In this document: positions 42,700 to 50,163 of the stretch, one piece after another | How positions within the stretch are numbered: the stretch's first letter is position 1 | Layout: every line of letters begins with the position of its first letter | NCBI RefSeq assembly: GCF_000014565.1 | Contig: NC_008268.1 | Location: 3,968,001-4,032,000, forward strand | DNA length: 64,000 nt | From: Rhodococcus jostii RHA1 | GTDB lineage: Bacteria > Actinomycetota > Actinomycetes > Mycobacteriales > Mycobacteriaceae | Reading direction: 5' to 3' | Translations under genes and position numbers: made by a program | The notes under the pieces: generated by a model | Database searches by the model: none | What the model saw: only the letters and a program-made list of their open reading frames with translations | What the model was told of the DNA's origin: nothing

Positions 42700-43230
42700 T
42701 CAGTCGAGAGTGAGCTGTTGTCGGTGGAAGTCGAAGTGCTTTCCCGGGTAACGAAAGACCTGCTCGACGGTCATCGTCTCGGTGAAGAACGGATCCCAAC
42801 GCACCGGAAAGGACATGCTGCGCTGTAGGTCTGCATCGGTCTGCCGGGCGAGGGAGCCTTGCAGCGAAGCGATGACGCGGTCGAAGTGGCGGCCCATCCG
42901 GCGTCGGTTGTAGACGCGCGCCGCCAGGGCCGAGCCCCGAAAGTTGACCTCGTCGAAGACTGGGGTGGCGGCGTCGAGCACGTGCGCGAACCGTCGGCTC
43001 GCCCCCTCCGGCAACCGGGAGAACATCCGGATCAGCAGGAGCAGCCGGCGAACGACCATGTAGCCGAAGACCATGTGGAACAGCAATTGCTCGTTGGTCC
43101 ATCGGGTTCCGGACGAACGCCTCGCGAGATCCGGGGCGCTCGCACCGTCGAGTAATTCGTGCAGCACGCTCCGGGCGCGTTCGAGGTCCGCGGCGATCGC
43201 GGCACGATCGACAGGTTGCTGCTCGGACAT
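42700..43230 (-). CDS. DinB-superfamily protein
   Basis: 176 residues, four-helix bundle: RWTNEQLLFHMVFGYMVVRR with the first metal-type His and HFDFHRQQLTL with a His pair near the end. DinB/YfiT proteins are putative thiol S-transferases that use bacillithiol or mycothiol. The context (next to the ArsR-ArsN1 fusion gene, 25 bp downstream of it) may link it to thiol-based detoxification. Confidence 0.82.
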   Translation of the reverse strand: MSEQQPVDRAAIAADLERARSVLHELLDGASAPDLARRSSGTRWTNEQLLFHMVFGYMVVRRLLLLIRMFSRLPEGASRRFAHVLDAATPVFDEVNFRGSALAARVYNRRRMGRHFDRVIASLQGSLARQTDADLQRSMSFPVRWDPFFTETMTVEQVFRYPGKHFDFHRQQLTLD

Positions 43231-43255
43231 CGTGTGCCCCAGTCGATTCGGAGGA

Positions 43256-44119
43256 TTATCCGACGACGGGGGAGCGGCGCTCGAGAAACACGGTGTCGCG
43301 CCATATGTCGTCGAGTCGGGCGATGCGTTCGCGCACACCGAGGGTGCGGAATCCGGCGGAGTGGTGCAGGGCGATACTGGCCCGGTTCTCGGGGAAGATC
43401 GAGGTCTGCAAGGTCCACAGTCCGGCCTCGTCGGCGGCGATGACCTGGGAGCGCAGCAAGGCCTTGCCGACGCCGCGCCCGCGCATCCCGTCGGCGACGT
43501 AGATCGAGTTCTCGGCCACCCCGGCGTAGCAGGCTCGCCCGGACACCGGGGACAGGGCGGCCCAGCCGACCACGACGTCGTCGATCTCGGCGACCCACCG
43601 ATGCCCGGGCAGCCACAGTCCATCGAGCGTCGCCTGGGTGGGGACCTCGGTGGTGAAGGTGGCGTTGCGGGTGGCGATGCCTTCGCCGTAGATCCGGCGC
43701 ACGTCATCCCAGTCCTGATCGGTCATGGTGCGCACGGTGACGTCGTCGGGCAGGTCGTCCGGGCAGCAGGGACGCGGCGTCAGTACACCCATCACTGCGT
43801 CGGCGGCGTGCGGCAGTCCGGTGCAGCAGGCCGGATTGACCATGACGACGGTGCTGGTGCCGCTCTTGCGGACCGAGACGAACCCGACATCGGCAAGCTT
43901 GCGCACGTGGTGCGAGACGGTGGGCTGGCCGATACCCAGAGCCTCGGCCAGCTCGCCCACGTTGATCCCGGTCTGGTGGGAGGCGACGTGGTGCAGCAGC
44001 CGCACCCGGGTCGGGTCGGCCAGGCACGCGAACCACCCGGCGTAGGTGGCCGCATCCTGCGGCGCCAACGCATCCACCTTGTCCGCGGGGTGGGCGACCG
44101 GAATGTCGGGGGAAGCCAT
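43256..44119 (-). CDS. ArsR-ArsN1 fusion: arsenic repressor joined to GNAT acetyltransferase
   Basis: 287 residues. Residues 20-112 are an ArsR winged helix (WFACLADPTRVRLLHHVASH, GIGQPTVSHHVRKLADVGFV) with Cys32, the pair Cys98-Cys99 and the pair Cys118-Cys119 as possible As(III) ligands. Residues 127-287 are an ArsN1-type N-acetyltransferase (RNATFTTEVPT, acetyl-CoA loop RGRGVGKALL at 213-222), a group that includes arsinothricin/phosphinothricin N-acetyltransferases. The protein would sense trivalent arsenic and also acetylate an organoarsenical or similar amino acid. Divergent from the ArsO-like gene over an array of ATCGAT sites. Confidence 0.9.
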   Translation of the reverse strand: MASPDIPVAHPADKVDALAPQDAATYAGWFACLADPTRVRLLHHVASHQTGINVGELAEALGIGQPTVSHHVRKLADVGFVSVRKSGTSTVVMVNPACCTGLPHAADAVMGVLTPRPCCPDDLPDDVTVRTMTDQDWDDVRRIYGEGIATRNATFTTEVPTQATLDGLWLPGHRWVAEIDDVVVGWAALSPVSGRACYAGVAENSIYVADGMRGRGVGKALLRSQVIAADEAGLWTLQTSIFPENRASIALHHSAGFRTLGVRERIARLDDIWRDTVFLERRSPVVG

Positions 44120-44130
44120 GCCCTCACTAT

Positions 44131-44202
44131 ATCGATATCCATCGATGGTTGCCTTCATCGACGCGCATCGATACTCTCTGGAAAGGATCGATGAACATCG
44201 AT
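44131..44202. promoter_or_regulatory. ArsR operator array (ATCGAT repeats)
   Basis: ATCGAT occurs at 44131, 44141, 44167, 44187 and 44197, with a near copy ATCGAC at 44157. They form three pairs spaced 10 bp, one helical turn, across the divergent promoters. Likely binding sites of the ArsR domain of the fusion protein, repressing both directions. Confidence 0.7.
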
Positions 44203-44216
44203 GAAAGGACTCCGAA

Positions 44217-45509
44217 ATGATCGCCTTGCCTGTTGTTGTCGTGGGGGCCGGACCGATCGGCCTCGCTGCCGCGGCCCAGTTGCGCGAGCGTGGCCTGACC
44301 CCGCTGGTCCTCGAACGCGGTCCGGTAGCCGGTGCCGCGATCACGCAGTGGAATCACGTGCGGTTGTTCTCCCGTTGGGGTGAGCTGATCGACCCGTCGG
44401 CCCGCCGCCTGCTCGACGCCACCGGCTGGGCGGCGCCGGACGACGACGCGTACCCGTCCGGCCAGGACTGGACCGAGAACTACCTGCAACCCCTCGCGAC
44501 CGCACTCGGCGACATCGTGCAGCTGTCCACCGAGGTGGTCGGGGTGGCCCGGCGCGGCCGGGACCGTGTCGTCGACGCCGGCCGCGACACCGAACCCCTC
44601 TCGGTACACATCCGCCGCGCCGACGGCACCGAGGATCGGATCACCGCGCAGGCCCTGATCGATGCCTCCGGCACCTGGGCCACCCCCAATCCCCTCGGCG
44701 GGGAAGGCCTGCCCGCGCTCGGCGAGCGCGCCGCCGCCGACGTTCTCGAATACCGGGTTCCGCATGTCGACGATCCCGAGGTGCGCGCCCGGTACGCGGG
44801 TAAGCACATCGTGATCGCCGGCAGCGGGCACTCGGCGCTGACCGCCATCGTGGCGCTGGCGGGCCTGGAGAAGCAGACGCCGGGCACCCGGATCAGTTGG
44901 GTGCTACGCCGCGGAGATGTCGGGTCCACCTTCGGCGGCGGCGAGGACGACCAGCTGCCCGCCCGCGGCGCCCTGGGCCTGCGTGCCAAGGCGGCGCTCG
45001 ACGACGGGCTGCTGACGGTGGTTCCCGGGTTCCGCACCGCCACCATCGAACCCAACGGCGACGTCGGCCGGGTGGCGTTGATCTCCGACACCGGCGCCCG
45101 CATCGAGGACGTCGATCGGGTGGTGGTGCTCACCGGATTCCGGCCCGATCTGTCCTGGCTGTCGGAGATCCGCCTCGGCCTGGACCCGGTGCTGCAGGCG
45201 CCGGTGGAGTTGGCGCCGTTGATCGACCCGAACGTGCACTCCTGCGGCACCGTCTACCCGCACGGGATAGCCGAACTGTCGCATCCGGAGCCGAATGTGT
45301 TCCTGGTCGGGATGAAGAGCTACGGGCGGGCGCCGACGTTCCTGGCGATGACCGGGTACGAGCAGGTCCGCAGCATCGCCGCCGCCCTTGCCGGCGACCA
45401 CGCCGCCGCCGCCCGCGTCGAACTCACGTTGCCGGAGACGGGGGTATGCGGCGGCGCCGGGGTCTTCGACGAACCCGAACCCGCCGCCGATGGCGCCACC
45501 ATCTCCTGA
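44217..45509 (+). CDS. arsO: FAD/NAD(P)-dependent monooxygenase, ArsO-like
   Basis: 430 residues. FAD site GAGPIG at 10-15, then FSRWGELIDPSARRLL, second Rossmann IVIAGSGHSAL near 198-208 and ATP/flavin-type motif VVVLTGFRPDL. The C-terminus carries PETGVCGGAGVF, a Cys typical of ArsO. ArsO proteins occur in actinobacterial ars operons beside arsR and arsT and are thought to act on arsenicals, though the reaction is not settled. ATG after AAAGGAC; divergent from ArsR-ArsN1. Symbol assigned by similarity and context. Confidence 0.8.
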   Translation: MIALPVVVVGAGPIGLAAAAQLRERGLTPLVLERGPVAGAAITQWNHVRLFSRWGELIDPSARRLLDATGWAAPDDDAYPSGQDWTENYLQPLATALGDIVQLSTEVVGVARRGRDRVVDAGRDTEPLSVHIRRADGTEDRITAQALIDASGTWATPNPLGGEGLPALGERAAADVLEYRVPHVDDPEVRARYAGKHIVIAGSGHSALTAIVALAGLEKQTPGTRISWVLRRGDVGSTFGGGEDDQLPARGALGLRAKAALDDGLLTVVPGFRTATIEPNGDVGRVALISDTGARIEDVDRVVVLTGFRPDLSWLSEIRLGLDPVLQAPVELAPLIDPNVHSCGTVYPHGIAELSHPEPNVFLVGMKSYGRAPTFLAMTGYEQVRSIAAALAGDHAAAARVELTLPETGVCGGAGVFDEPEPAADGATIS

Positions 45510-45616
45510 CCTGCCTGATTCTGCTTCGGGTGCGTCCAACTCGAGGTTCGTTCGTCTGAGGAAGCGGACTCCCACTCACCACCGGGTGGGTGCACACCTT
45601 CCGAGAGGAACCTCCG

Positions 45617-45673
45617 ATGACCATCCACCCGACTGCCCGCCCCGCCCCTTACCGGTTCGGGGGTGTGCGATGA
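45617..45673 (+). CDS. 18-residue leader peptide coupled to the ABC gene
   Basis: MTIHPTARPAPYRFGGVR with a strong GAGAGGA site. Its TGA overlaps the ATG of the ABC ATPase (ATGA), so ribosomes finishing the leader would restart on the transporter gene. The ABC gene itself has a weaker site. Likely a translational-coupling or attenuation leader; not in the usual family annotation. Confidence 0.5.
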   Translation: MTIHPTARPAPYRFGGVR

Positions 45674-46596
45674 ACGCGCCGACCGTCGTGGTCGAGGATC
45701 TGCACGTCGCCTACAACAAGACGTGGGCTCTCGACGGTGTCGATCTGGAGGCTGCCGCCGGGACCACGCTCGGTGTGCTCGGCCACAACGGTGCCGGCAA
45801 GACCACCTTGATCCGCACCCTCACCACCTTGGTGCGGCCCACCATCGGCCGCGTGCAGATTGAGGGCCTCGACGTGGTCGTCCACGCCACCGAGGTGCGT
45901 CGCCGGATCGGTGTGACCGGCCAATACGCCGGTCTCGACGAATTCCTCACCGCCCGAGAGAATCTGGAGCTGATCGGCCGACTGACCGGGCTGCGCCGCA
46001 CCGCCCGCGAACGGGCCGACGCGCTGATCGACCGGCTCGGGTTGCAGGAATACGCGTCCCGGCGGGTGGGGGAACTCTCCGGGGGCTCGCGCCGGCGGGT
46101 CGATCTGGCCGCCAGCCTCGTCGGCTCCCCGTCGGTACTGTTCCTCGACGAGCCGACCACCGGTCTCGATCCCCTCGCCCGCGCCGGATTGTGGGACGTC
46201 GTCGACGAGCTCACCGACGCGGGCACTACGGTCGTGCTCACCACCCAGTACCTCGAGGAGGCCGACCGGCTCGCCGACCACATCGTGGTCCTGCGCCGGG
46301 GCAGGGTCGCCGCCCGCGGCACCCCCGCCGAGCTCAAACGGATTGTCGGCGGCAAGGTCCTCAGCGCCACCATCCCCGCCGGTCAGCTCGCCGCGCTGCC
46401 CTTCGTCCCGGACACCGATCCGCGGGTCGACGGCGACCGCCTGCGGGTGTCGGTCACCGTCGGCGACGCCCCCGCCGCGACCGCGCTGGTCGCCGACCTG
46501 CACCGCGGCGGCATCGAGGTCACCGACCTGGACGTGACCTCACCGAGCCTCGACGACGTCTTCACCCACCTCGCCCACACAGGAGCCCACAAATGA
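45670..46596 (+). CDS. ABC transporter ATPase (DrrA type)
   Basis: 308 residues. Walker A GHNGAGKT at 38-45, signature LSGGSRRRVDLAASL at 136-150 (Arg replaces the usual Gln), Walker B VLFLDEPTTGLDP at 156-168, and the DrrA C-terminal extension (VTSPSLDDVFTHL). Powers export of drugs or lipids with the membrane protein next to it (4-bp overlap). Placed between the ars genes and a sigma factor; could expel toxic conjugates, but the substrate is unknown. Confidence 0.92.
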   Translation: MNAPTVVVEDLHVAYNKTWALDGVDLEAAAGTTLGVLGHNGAGKTTLIRTLTTLVRPTIGRVQIEGLDVVVHATEVRRRIGVTGQYAGLDEFLTARENLELIGRLTGLRRTARERADALIDRLGLQEYASRRVGELSGGSRRRVDLAASLVGSPSVLFLDEPTTGLDPLARAGLWDVVDELTDAGTTVVLTTQYLEEADRLADHIVVLRRGRVAARGTPAELKRIVGGKVLSATIPAGQLAALPFVPDTDPRVDGDRLRVSVTVGDAPAATALVADLHRGGIEVTDLDVTSPSLDDVFTHLAHTGAHK

Positions 46597-47399
46597 CCAC
46601 CACCACTGCGATCGGGCGGCCCTCGGCCTTCGACCAGCTCGCCGCACTCACCGTCCGGAACCTGCGCACCAGTGCCCGCGTTCCGCAGCTGTTGATGTTC
46701 TCGCTGACCATGCCGATGGCGATGCTGGTGCTGTTCAGTCAGGTGTTCCGCAGCGTCGCCGCCGGACCGGGTTTCCCTGCCGGGGTCAGCTACATCGTCT
46801 TCCTCACCCCGGCGATGCTCGCCGTCTCCACGGTGATGGCCGGCACCAACGCCGGAGTGTCCGCCGCGATCGATCACACCAACGGCCTGCACGACCGCTT
46901 CGCGGCCCTGCCGATGCGGGCGGCGCTGCCGGGGGTGGCTCGCACCATCAACGAGGCCGTCTTCACCCTCGCCCGGGCTGCGTTGCTCGGGATCGCCGCC
47001 GTCGCTTTGGGTTTCGAGTTCCACGGCACCGCAGGGGATGCCGTCGCCGCGGTCCTGGTGCTGGTGGTGTTGGCCGGGGCGATGAGCGCCCTGTTCGGGC
47101 TGATCGGGGATCGGCTCCGCCGGCCGGACGTGGTCCAGTTCGCCGGGATGATGGTGATGATGCCGCTGATGTTCGTCTCGAGTGCGTTCGCGCCGATCGA
47201 GACCATGCCCGGCTGGATGCAGGCGATGGCGACAGTGAATCCGGTCGCGCACGCCACCGATGCCCTGCGCGGCCACGTGCTCGGCACCGCCACCGCCGGC
47301 GACACTCTTACCGCCCTGGTCGCGGCGATCGGTTTGTGGGCGGTGGTGACCGCCGTTCCCGTCCTCACCCGCATGATTCGGTCGGCACGCACCCGCTGA
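46593..47399 (+). CDS. ABC transporter permease (DrrB/ABC-2 type)
   Basis: 268 residues, six membrane helices. It has the ABC-2 features SYIVFLTPAMLAVSTVMAG and NGLHDRFAALPMR; PIETMPGWMQAMATVNPVAH is the conserved loop before helix 6. ATGA overlap with the ATPase gene. Ends 9 bp before a strong terminator hairpin. Confidence 0.92.
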   Translation: MTTTTAIGRPSAFDQLAALTVRNLRTSARVPQLLMFSLTMPMAMLVLFSQVFRSVAAGPGFPAGVSYIVFLTPAMLAVSTVMAGTNAGVSAAIDHTNGLHDRFAALPMRAALPGVARTINEAVFTLARAALLGIAAVALGFEFHGTAGDAVAAVLVLVVLAGAMSALFGLIGDRLRRPDVVQFAGMMVMMPLMFVSSAFAPIETMPGWMQAMATVNPVAHATDALRGHVLGTATAGDTLTALVAAIGLWAVVTAVPVLTRMIRSARTR

Positions 47400-47408
47400 A
47401 CAACGAAC

Positions 47409-47445
47409 CCGCCCTGCCCATCCCACAACGGGAGGGGCAGGGCGG
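47409..47445 (+). terminator. Terminator after the ABC exporter genes
   Basis: 11-bp perfect stem (CCGCCCTGCCC and GGGCAGGGCGG), 15-base loop, followed by TTT at 47446. Confidence 0.75.
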
Positions 47446-47565
47446 TTTGGTGTGTGCCCTCCTGGTCCGGAGCCGGGCACTCTGATGGCCCCTACCCGGT
47501 GCAGGGGGAGGGGCTAGGAGAGCGCTGTGGTCAGCGGGTGCGCCCGGCGCGGGCGTCGACGGCGC

Positions 47566-47658
47566 TCATGCGGCGGCGTCGAGCAGATGCAGCTCCTCCG
47601 CCACGATCAGGTCGACCTCTTCGCTGGTCAGACCCGACAACAGATGTGTGGTCAGCAT
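47566..47658 (-). CDS. 30-residue peptide upstream of and divergent from the sigma factor
   Basis: ATG at 47658 with a very strong GGAGGTGA site. Acidic, Leu/Glu-rich (LTSEEVDLIVAEELHLLDAA) with a hydrophobic start. The region is divergent from the SigZ-like gene (211 bp). No family recognised; the length and composition would fit a leader peptide or small regulator, but also an unknown RiPP-type precursor. Translation is likely, function unknown. Confidence 0.45.
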   Translation of the reverse strand: MLTTHLLSGLTSEEVDLIVAEELHLLDAAA

Positions 47659-47869
47659 TGCTCTCACCTCCTCACCGTGCTTCTACTGGTACGTCGAACC
47701 GGAGAATCCGGAATCGACATCGACACCCATACAGACGAGGAACTTCGGATTCGGACGCAGGTGCGTCCGACCGCGGTCACCGTCGTCCGTACCTGAGAGA
47801 GGACGCCCTCAGGGGGTCGCGACCGCGCCGCCAGGCGGGGATGCTGGAGACGGAAAGGAACCACAGATC

Positions 47870-48499
47870 ATGAACGAGGACACGGCCACCACCGCGACGA
47901 CACCCCAGCAGGCACCAGCTGATCTCGACCAGCTCTGGCGCCGCTTCTCGAGCGACTTGCGGGCCTTCATCGCCCGCCGGGTCTCGCGTCCCGAGGACGC
48001 CGACGACATTCTGTCGATCGTGTTCCTGCGGATGGCCAAGAGCCTCGACAACCTGCGGGAGCAGGACCGCCTCCTTGGCTGGATGTATGCCATCACCCGC
48101 AACGCGATCACCGACTACTACCGGTCCGCATCTCACCGCCGCGAGCTGGCTGTCGACACCGTCCCCGACAACCCACCCGACGGAGAACCTGACGCCGACG
48201 AGACGGCGGAGAAGGAACTCGCCTCCTGCCTGGTTCCGATGCTCTCCGGGCTGCCCGCCGAGCAGGCCGCGGCGGTGAAGATGGTCGACCTCGACAACCG
48301 AACCAACGCCGCCGCCGCCAACGAGGTGGGAATCTCGGTGTCCGGGATGAAATCCCGGGTCCAACGCGGCCGCGCCGCCCTCCAGGCCCAACTGCACACC
48401 TGCTGTCAGATCAGCCAGGACCGCACGGGCCACGTCCACGACTACCAGCCCCGCAGCGGATCCTGCGCCTGCGGAGCCACGCCATCGGACGACGAGTAG
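47870..48499 (+). CDS. SigZ-type ECF sigma factor with Cys-rich tail
   Basis: 209 residues. Region 2 (LWRRFSSDLRAFIARRVSRP, DDILSIVFLRMAKSL, LLGWMYAITRNAITDYYRSA) and region 4 (LPAEQAAAVKMVDL, NEVGISVSGMKSRVQRGRAA). After region 4 comes a tail with Cys178-Cys179, Cys199 and Cys201 plus His188 and His190, which resembles a metal site. Members of the SigZ group are suspected to respond to metal or redox cues directly, without an anti-sigma factor; no anti-sigma gene is adjacent. ATG behind AAAGGAA. Confidence 0.88.
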   Translation: MNEDTATTATTPQQAPADLDQLWRRFSSDLRAFIARRVSRPEDADDILSIVFLRMAKSLDNLREQDRLLGWMYAITRNAITDYYRSASHRRELAVDTVPDNPPDGEPDADETAEKELASCLVPMLSGLPAEQAAAVKMVDLDNRTNAAAANEVGISVSGMKSRVQRGRAALQAQLHTCCQISQDRTGHVHDYQPRSGSCACGATPSDDE

Positions 48500-48562
48500 A
48501 CCGGCGAATCATCTCTGGTGACGGCGACGGGGCGACCGGGCGAGGTCACGCTGACAAGACTG

Positions 48563-48599
48563 CGGTGCGGCGCGAGCCATCTTCGCTCGCACCGCACCG
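48563..48599. terminator. Bidirectional hairpin between SigZ and Cys-rich gene
   Basis: 15-bp stem with one mismatch (CGGTGCGGCGCGAGC and GCTCGCACCGCACCG), 7-base loop, midway between two converging genes. Confidence 0.75.
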
Positions 48600-48613
48600 T
48601 TGTCACCTGAGGG

Positions 48614-48793
48614 CTACTGGCAGCCGCATCCCTCGCCGCCGGCCGTCGCCGCCGGACCGCAGCACGTCGACTTCTCGCTGAGGTCGCAGCAGGTGGCTTG
48701 TCGTTCGGTGCTGCAACACGTGGGTGCCGCAGCCTGTGGGGTGGCGTCCGTCCGCTCCGTCGCCGAGGTCTCGAACTCGTTGGGGTTGGTCAT
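48614..48793 (-). CDS. Small protein with eight cysteines, metal-binding candidate
   Basis: 59 residues, ATG 48793 after a perfect AAGGAG. The second half has four Cys pairs: TCCSTERQATCC, STCCGP and GCGCQ at the C-terminus. Such small proteins resemble metallothioneins or arsenic-buffering peptides and are often annotated hypothetical in Rhodococcus. Its neighbours (SigZ-like with a Cys tail; ars genes 4 kb away) fit metal or metalloid buffering. No homologue named with confidence. Confidence 0.7.
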   Translation of the reverse strand: MTNPNEFETSATERTDATPQAAAPTCCSTERQATCCDLSEKSTCCGPAATAGGEGCGCQ

Positions 48794-48986
48794 GGTGGCT
48801 CCTTGATCCGTGGGGATGGGTACCAGATCAGACGGAGGAGACCGGAAATGGACGCACTTGCCCGTCGCGAAAGATGAGGTGCGCCCGTGCCTGGCCGCGC
48901 CCCACTGAGATAAGTCGCGTGTCGAAACTTGTGTGCGAAACCGTCGGCGACCAGCACGGGTGAATCCTGCGGAGGACAATGGGACG

Positions 48987-49332: not shown

Positions 49333-49674
49333 GTGTCAGAAACAGATGAGGACCGGGCCGATGCCCTGTTCCACGCGCTGTCCGACCGAACGAGGCGCGA
49401 CATCATGCGTCGCGTGCTGGCCGGCGAGCATTCCGTCTCGGCACTGGCAGCGAAGTACGACATGAGTTTCGCTGCGGTACAGAAGCACGTCGCCGTTCTC
49501 CAGAAGTCCGGCCTACTCGTCAAAAGACGCAGCGGCCGTGAACAACTCGCCACGGGCGATGTGGAAGCAGTACGCGCGGTGTCGTCCATGCTCGCGGAGC
49601 TGGAACAGGTCTGGCGTGGACGTATCGCGCGCATCGACGAACTGATCGCAACGCAACCCCAACGGAAGGAATGA
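49333..49674 (+). CDS. ArsR-family repressor (SRPBCC-associated)
   Basis: 113 residues from GTG 49333. Winged helix LFHALSDRTRRDIMRRVLAG, SVSALAAKYDMSFAAVQKHV, LVKRRSGREQ. No metal-binding Cys are visible, so the ligand is probably not a metal. Overlaps nothing but is followed in 3 bp by an SRPBCC gene, the common ArsR-AHSA1 pair. Autoregulation is indicated by the palindrome over its promoter. Confidence 0.88.
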   Translation: MSETDEDRADALFHALSDRTRRDIMRRVLAGEHSVSALAAKYDMSFAAVQKHVAVLQKSGLLVKRRSGREQLATGDVEAVRAVSSMLAELEQVWRGRIARIDELIATQPQRKE

Positions 49675-49677
49675 ACG

Positions 49678-50163
49678 ATGCCTGTCACCAAGGTCAGCCA
49701 CGACATCGACGCACTGACCCTGACCATCACCGCCGAGTTCGCCGCGCCCCGAGCGCGGATCTGGCAGATCTATGCCGATCCTCGCCAGCTCGAGAAGATC
49801 TGGGGTCCGCCGACGTACCCGGCGACGGTGGTCGACCACGAGTTCACCCCCGGCGGGCGGGTCAACTACTACATGACCGGCCCCGAGGGCGACAAGCATG
49901 CGGGCTACTGGAACATCGTCTCCGTCGATGAGCCGACCGGCTTCACCTTCACCGACGGATTCGCCGATGCGGATTTCACGCCGATCGAATCGATGCCGGT
50001 GTCCACCAACGAGTACTCCTTCGAGGAGAAGGACGGCAGCACCATCGCCACCTACGTCAGCACCTACGCAACCGCCGAAGGTCTCCAGCAGGTGCTCGAC
50101 ATGGGTGTGGTCGAGGGTGCCTCGCAGGCGATCGGCCAGATCGACGACCTCATCAAGGGTTGA
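49678..50163 (+). CDS. SRPBCC/AHSA1-domain protein
   Basis: 161 residues, START-like ligand pocket (AEFAAPRARIWQIYADPRQL, GPPTYPATVVDHEFTPGGRV, DEPTGFTFTDGF). Proteins of this type bind hydrophobic small molecules, and a co-chaperone link for AHSA1 exists only in eukaryotes. Coupled to the ArsR-type repressor upstream; function unknown. Terminator hairpin after the stop. Confidence 0.9.
   Translation: MPVTKVSHDIDALTLTITAEFAAPRARIWQIYADPRQLEKIWGPPTYPATVVDHEFTPGGRVNYYMTGPEGDKHAGYWNIVSVDEPTGFTFTDGFADADFTPIESMPVSTNEYSFEEKDGSTIATYVSTYATAEGLQQVLDMGVVEGASQAIGQIDDLIKG

Follow-up and report, generated by a model that had tools for sequence, protein, structure and literature searches.

Bacterial arsenic genes are usually thought to be repressed by ArsR. 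Metal sensing by a sigma factor itself is described for the CorE type of extracytoplasmic function (ECF) sigma factors, in which a cysteine-rich C-terminal extension binds the metal. According to the accessible portion of PMC8999054, CorE and CorE2 of Myxococcus xanthus (formerly ECF44, with the CorE2 type now in ECF238) respond to Cu and Cd/Zn, and ECF287 and ECF288 are cysteine-bearing ECF groups. Here we analyzed a 64,000-nucleotide stretch of the 9.7 Mb genome of Rhodococcus jostii RHA1 (NC_008268.1, positions 3,968,001 to 4,032,000), referred to below as the window, in which a SigZ-type ECF sigma factor is encoded beside a DrrAB-type ATP-binding cassette (ABC) exporter, a 30-residue peptide on the minus strand and a 59-residue protein with eight cysteines (the 8-Cys protein). 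The neighborhood joins two units: these genes make up module A (45531-48856), and an ArsR-ArsN1-type fusion, a flavoprotein and a DinB protein make up module B (42700-45509). We consider it reasonably probable that module A is a self-contained regulon in which SigZ is itself the sensor of a thiol-binding metalloid, in a CorE-like manner, and drives local buffering and export. In contrast to repression by ArsR, a sigma factor would then be the sensor, defining a regulon of a buffering protein and an exporter, with SigZ relatives inside ars loci of other phyla.

Genes were placed by frame and start and named by Pfam and NCBIfam models. An element, TGCGTCC-N15-CGTC, lies upstream of four genes of module A in the window. 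The copy at 45531-45556 (plus strand) precedes drrA (45670-46596, plus strand), which is followed by drrB (46593-47399, plus strand). The gene for the 30-residue peptide (47566-47658, minus strand) has its element at 47734-47759 (minus strand), back to back with the element of sigZ (47762-47787, plus strand), and sigZ itself lies at 47870-48499 (plus strand). The 8-Cys gene (48614-48793, minus strand) has its element at 48831-48856 on the same strand. With spacings of 14-16 allowed, the element stands in the same place before drrA in 20 of 28 Nocardiaceae (Rhodococcus, Nocardia) loci, and it precedes the peptide gene in all 28 and sigZ and the 8-Cys gene in 24 each.

These 28 loci hold 97 sites, compared with a mean of 1.6 and a maximum of 5 in 30 dinucleotide shuffles. 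Another ten actinobacterial SigZ loci hold 10 sites (0.6 when shuffled, maximum 2), with at least one site in 7 of them, and 20 control ECF sigma loci hold none (0.67 when shuffled, maximum 3). Counts from related loci are not independent, yet four separate units per locus bear the element. By promoter and synteny, the exporter, the peptide, SigZ and the 8-Cys protein form one predicted unit, and SigZ itself probably reads the element. Both the peptide and the promoter common to the four units had been overlooked in the first-pass annotation of this DNA.

Module A is duplicated in the host genome. The second copy (L039, G000:C1:7532000-7549000) encodes a sigma factor 97% identical to that of the window and has no module B and no sought ars gene nearby. 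SigZ is patchy in the genus (8 of 28 genomes), and some sigZ copies are plasmid-borne, including one on the R. opacus B4 plasmid NC_012520. Of the 38 sites that a longer form of the pattern, ending in CGTCTG, gave in the 28 genomes, 31 fall in the 8 SigZ-bearing genomes (26 within modules) and the other 7 in the 20 that lack SigZ; the reversed control gave 11. In the host genome all five longer-pattern sites fall within the two modules, and the shorter pattern gave 19 sites, 7 of which lie in or beside these modules. The remaining 12 are not clearly over background, and across the genus 12 of the 38 longer-pattern sites lie outside modules, against the 11 of the reversed control. With 19 shorter-pattern sites in the host versus 7 in its reversed control, we therefore claim no wider SigZ regulon. 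An extra site precedes the gene of a class I methyltransferase in three of the five loci that have it (L041, L044 and L039, where the gene is about 3 kb off), and in Actinotalea (L065) a site precedes a gene for a 133-residue protein followed by a related methyltransferase. The class I methyltransferase is UbiE-like and scores far under ArsM models.

To define the units, gene order was compared in 30 loci using an in-house gene caller and blastp clustering. A sigma-protein scan gave 27 loci, of which 25 (L041-L065; 24 from Rhodococcus or Nocardia and one from Actinotalea) were retained as SigZ relatives and two (L066, L067) were dropped at 24-25% identity; the second host copy, L068, L069, L070 and the window complete the set. 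DrrA and DrrB are present in 25 of the 30 loci and the 8-Cys protein in 28, its gene not being found in L057 and the contig of L063 stopping 138 bases past sigZ. By comparison, the ArsR-ArsN1 fusion and the flavoprotein are each present in 13, the DinB protein in 11 and a major facilitator superfamily (MFS) exporter after the flavoprotein in 9. Because the distributions differ and module A has its own promoter set, we treat the modules as two separate units; a single six-gene operon was rejected on the gene-order comparison and that promoter set. What the first-pass annotation had taken for one contiguous neighborhood is thus two modules, and the linkage it had proposed to look for in relatives holds for part of it, the exporter, peptide, SigZ and 8-Cys genes forming one unit and the ArsR-ArsN1, flavoprotein and DinB genes a second. 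The recurrence of gene order and promoters across Nocardiaceae loci is more than chance.

The 30-residue peptide is present in at least 25 of 29 loci (20 in one comparison and 5 more in another). In the 20 loci, differences from the window copy number 23, 25 and 77 at codon positions 1, 2 and 3; it therefore behaves as a coding gene, and may serve as a feedback element. A short leader open reading frame (45590-45672) overlaps drrA through ATGA in the window. Such a leader precedes drrA in 25 of 25 loci and often starts MTTHL or MTIHL, like the 30-residue peptide.

SigZ is the best-scoring family for the window sigma factor, which falls just under both curated cut-offs (TIGR02959, 168.4 bits, cut-off 168.65; NF007215, 180.1 bits, cut-off 212); a six-frame search gave 168.6 bits for TIGR02959, or 168.8 with in-frame neighbors. 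The same family is the best NCBIfam match for all ten distant copies that were scored, at 131.7-204.6 bits for TIGR02959, five of them above the cut-off. The four tail cysteines reported in the first-pass annotation are present (C178, C179, C199 and C201), and there is a fifth cysteine, C120, in the linker between regions 2 and 4. Among 53 aligned SigZ sequences, the window protein and 52 chosen among 120 matches listed of 1,989, residues C120, C178, C179 and C201 are invariant. A further 19 loci yielded a SigZ frame in 18 (none in L124). All 18 have a CC in the tail, directly after region 4 in 16; in L123 and L127 one Cys follows region 4 and the CC comes 11-12 residues farther on. None of 23 control ECFs has a CC in its last 48 residues. 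A CC after region 4 plus a further Cys-bearing tail is thus a SigZ feature, defined from these alignments and shared by the window protein. The linker Cys is found in 16 of the 18 distant proteins, and in seven copies (the window and six others) it lies 58 or 59 residues from the first Cys after region 4.

Because As(III) is commonly bound by three thiols, the linker Cys together with the tail pair makes a plausible arsenic site, as judged from the alignments. The AlphaFold2 model of SigZ places a beta hairpin after region 4 and leaves the linker unordered. The matches that Foldseek listed for this model include known sigma factors as well as other entries; none of those listed matched the tail.

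The window protein resembles CorE and CorE2 as an ECF sigma factor with a Cys-bearing C-terminal extension, with no anti-sigma gene recognized alongside and with a metal-type signal proposed. It differs from them, as far as the accessible portion of PMC8999054 describes them, in three respects: the linker has a single Cys at position 120 (context LASCLVP) and not the CxC motif of CorE, the tail follows another pattern, and the neighboring genes are arsenic-type and not copper/cadmium. Since its linker lacks CxC, SigZ is not a CorE-type protein; by analogy, it most likely works most like CorE. In the searchable literature, mostly without subscription journals, we found no description of a SigZ regulon with DrrAB, the 30-residue peptide and the 8-Cys protein, and no SigZ signal or SigZ-arsenic link; in the accessible portion of PMC3022917, matches were confined to the reference list.

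In other bacteria, SigZ is repeatedly found within or close to ars genes. One run of genes in Ideonella encodes an ArsR-type regulator, ArsI/CadI, ArsC, ArsC, ACR3, SigZ, a PF03773 permease, thioredoxin and ArsA. On a Klebsiella plasmid SigZ stands between ArsH and ArsD, as seen in the one record examined of 1,203 that matched, 994 of which are Klebsiella. In Hymenobacter roughly 2 kb separates SigZ from ArsC, ACR3 and an ArsN1-type GNAT, and in two Vibrio records (L124, L131) it comes after an ArsR-type gene, with a PF03773 permease near. The promoter element was not recognized by eye in the printed Klebsiella, Vibrio, Priestia and Ideonella stretches; in Hymenobacter a similar element, GCGTC...CGTCTAT, is present twice.

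Screening 396 genomes of the phylum with the SigZ model gave matches of at least 148 bits in seven genomes, the host included. The element precedes a PF03773 permease and then sigZ in L133 and L134, and a DUF2703 protein ending in an 8-Cys segment and then sigZ in L092/L135. Such DUF2703/8-Cys fusions lie directly upstream of sigZ at L092:783-1445 and L093:2087-2935. In L139 a module-B type flavoprotein gene is divergent from sigZ with back-to-back elements, and in Nonomuraea (L121) sigZ lies between a module-B type flavoprotein and an ArsO-like protein (237.2 bits, cut-off 425); these two loci tie SigZ to the module-B flavoprotein.

Overall, 18 of 30 Nocardiaceae loci and 9 of the 20 remaining SigZ loci (12 of 20 counting the DUF2703/8-Cys fusion) have an arsenic-type gene in the neighborhood of SigZ, compared with 0 of 20 control ECF stretches, which are shorter (20 of the 23 control loci with flanks, mean 12.4 kb). 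Counting ACR3, ArsC, ArsH, ArsD, ArsI and ArsA only, the figures are 13 of 30 and 5 of 20; plasmid records favor resistance genes, and several of the SigZ loci are closely related.

The 59-residue 8-Cys protein, already noticed in the first-pass annotation, gave no Pfam or NCBIfam match, and its eight cysteines are invariant in nine copies chosen for diversity. A profile search with it returned 95 proteins, including a 91-residue relative and two short matches named arsenite methyltransferase by JGI. The 91-residue, ArsM-like relative matched in 5 of 396 genomes and found no match on plasmids. In two of these 5 genomes, full-length proteins (L161 and L164) carry the 8-Cys segment at the N-terminus and score 296.5 and 317.5 against the arsenite methyltransferase cut-off of 263; one of them adjoins an ACR3-type gene cut by the locus end (270.6, cut-off 282.8). 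When the cysteines were fixed and the other residues shuffled, the score was reached by 1 of 500 shuffles for L161 and by 0 of 500 for both L164 and the DUF2703 fusion. By this test the window protein resembles the ArsM N-terminal segment beyond the cysteines.

The protein thus shares with the N-terminal Cys segment of actinobacterial ArsM the same eight-cysteine pattern and similar residues between, but it stands alone at 59 residues, with no methyltransferase domain. Because of this relation we read it as a putative stand-alone arsenic- or metal-binding buffer. One relative, P0130, carries the UniRef name Metallothionein. On a Hymenobacter plasmid (L122:8015-8150), an element resembling the one before sigZ precedes a 22-residue open reading frame with three CC pairs, read by eye from the DNA, a possible parallel to the 8-Cys protein.

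The exporter named in the first-pass annotation is confirmed by its domain families. DrrA matches TIGR01188 at 298.4 bits (cut-off 312.45), and DrrB, an ABC-2 permease, matches PF01061 at 93.9 bits and TIGR01247 at 75.5 (cut-off 223.05); below the curated cut-offs, these scores indicate a like transporter type and do not imply the substrate.

We propose that the thiols of SigZ (C120 in the linker; C178-C179 and C199/C201 in the tail) would bind a thiol-seeking metalloid, most likely trivalent arsenic, either As(III) or a trivalent organoarsenical. Metalloid-bound SigZ would be the active sigma factor, as in CorE and CorE2, and would recognize TGCGTCC-N15-CGTC, switching on itself, the 30-residue peptide, the 8-Cys protein and DrrAB. 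The 8-Cys protein would buffer the metalloid on its own thiols, and the exporter would remove the poison or a thiol conjugate. We infer that the tail binds the inducer, that the inducer is arsenic-like and that DrrAB exports the inducer or its conjugate. We judge the evidence for the regulon to be good and that for an arsenic signal to be moderate.

A more specific version, which we hold tentatively, is that SigZ is an arsenic-sensing sigma factor in which the linker Cys and the tail Cys pair, at near-fixed spacing, bind a trivalent arsenical, the regulon being started without a repressor or an anti-sigma factor. If so, the sensing principle would extend to relatives in four phyla, among them those in ars loci on Klebsiella plasmids, and there would be a class of candidate signals for SigZ in Bacillus relatives. 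SigZ would also gain a testable role and a ready promoter, suggesting a compact one-protein part for arsenic biosensors. The first-pass annotation had suggested sensing, modification, export and buffering in a metalloid or thiol response; this outline fits the evidence, with the SigZ regulon and not ArsR-ArsN1 as its organizer.

Several observations weigh against SigZ as an arsenic sensor. L090 and L091 have no linker Cys, the AlphaFold2 model is weak (pTM 0.40), and the element was not found in three of the ten other actinobacterial SigZ loci: L136 and L137, where the DUF2703/8-Cys fusion is present, and L138, where no sought arsenic-type gene was found either. No sought gene was found in 12 of 30 Nocardiaceae SigZ loci (including the second copy in the host genome) and 8 of 20 others, and on two Priestia plasmids SigZ lies beside an aldo/keto reductase. 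The arsenic-type references were taken from these same loci, and some matches are therefore self-hits. For the PF03773 permeases the nearest model is SO_0444, of Cu/Zn efflux, and they score below its cut-off; these permeases therefore need not carry arsenic.

Some of these observations would fit a SigZ that senses general thiol stress or electrophiles such as disulfide stress, quinones or conjugatable xenobiotics, arsenic being one agent and DrrAB exporting an organic toxin or thiol conjugate. DrrAB-type exporters carry organic drugs, some module A copies are without ars genes, and the reductase in Priestia points the same way. So does a glutathione S-transferase gene near sigZ in V. cortegadensis (L128), L129 and L130, where the sought genes were not found. 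The sigZ gene of L129 lies after an ArsR-type gene, and Vibrionaceae may have a version of the regulon based on thiol conjugation. The linkage of SigZ to ars genes in several phyla and the relation of the 8-Cys protein to ArsM argue against it, and we regard general thiol stress as the signal as rather unlikely.

More doubtful is a signal from a different thiophilic metal (Cu, Zn, Cd or Hg), with the arsenic linkage arising from mixed metal-resistance islands. The metals to which CorE and CorE2 answer (PMC8999054, accessible portion) and the likeness of the SigZ-adjacent permeases to the Cu/Zn efflux model, below its cut-off, speak for it, as do P-type ATPase and cation-diffusion genes 3.5-12 kb from SigZ on one Rhodococcus plasmid, but SigZ sits between ars genes in Ideonella and Klebsiella and the 8-Cys segment is found on arsenite methyltransferases, which makes this improbable. 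That all six genes form one arsenical-modification system driven by ArsR-ArsN1 is very improbable: they are contiguous in the window and, disregarding an MFS gene where one is inserted, in L043, L041, L044, L045 and L069, but more than half of the 30 loci have module A, with its own promoter set, and no module B, and module B lies on the opposite side in L048, L051, L053 and L058.

Apart from the SigZ regulon, module B is best read, from its predicted proteins, as a neighboring arsenical-modification unit controlled by its own ArsR. The ArsR/SmtB regulator and the ArsN1-type acetyltransferase share one frame (43256-44119, minus strand), as the first-pass annotation had it, with HTH_metalloreg at 64.4 bits (cut-off 55) and Cys pairs at 98-99 and 118-119 after the DNA-binding part. 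The ArsN1 identity itself is not carried by the curated model: ArsN1a (ArsN1 family A) is the best model for the GNAT half at 134 bits, below the cut-off of 170, under which stand-alone ArsN1 relatives in ars loci also fall (Klebsiella 147.9, Hymenobacter 137.4). In the ArsN1 comparison 5jtf was a weak match. Compared with the ArsN1 arsinothricin N-acetyltransferase, for which the accessible portion of PMC6465285 gives Arg75, Arg77 and Phe33 among the substrate residues of PpArsN1, the GNAT half is nearest to family A, but the window protein is under the curated cut-off and fused to ArsR. ArsRM of Brevundimonas, an ArsR-methyltransferase fusion (PMC10190100, accessible portion), likewise joins an ArsR-type regulator to an arsenical-modifying enzyme, whereas the enzyme half in the window is an ArsN1-type acetyltransferase. 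No publication on an ArsR-ArsN1 fusion was found in the searchable literature, which includes few subscription journals.

Between the fusion and flavoprotein genes, at 44120-44216, a repeated ATCGAT spotted by eye is a candidate ArsR operator. The FAD/NAD(P) flavoprotein (44217-45509, plus strand) had been called ArsO-like; at 42.2 bits against a cut-off of 425, we rejected ArsO as its identity. The flavoproteins of the window, L043 and L069 lack the one or two near-terminal cysteines of ten other copies, and the MFS gene is missing in the same three loci; where present, this exporter is nearest to ArsK (155.4 bits, cut-off 400). In the window the drrA promoter element lies 22 bases past the flavoprotein stop, which looks like the join left by a deletion. 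The DinB-type protein (42700-43230, minus strand) is a DinB_2 superfamily member, as first annotated (PF12867, 39.9 bits, cut-off 24.8).

A search with the arsenic-type reference protein set found no acr3 or arsC homologue in the window between 39001 and 57000, in agreement with the first-pass annotation; the single ACR3 of the genome is at C1:3558451, about 0.4 Mb away. Downstream of module A, at 49333-50163, genes for an ArsR-type regulator and, after it, an AHSA1 (SRPBCC) protein seem to form a separate unit.

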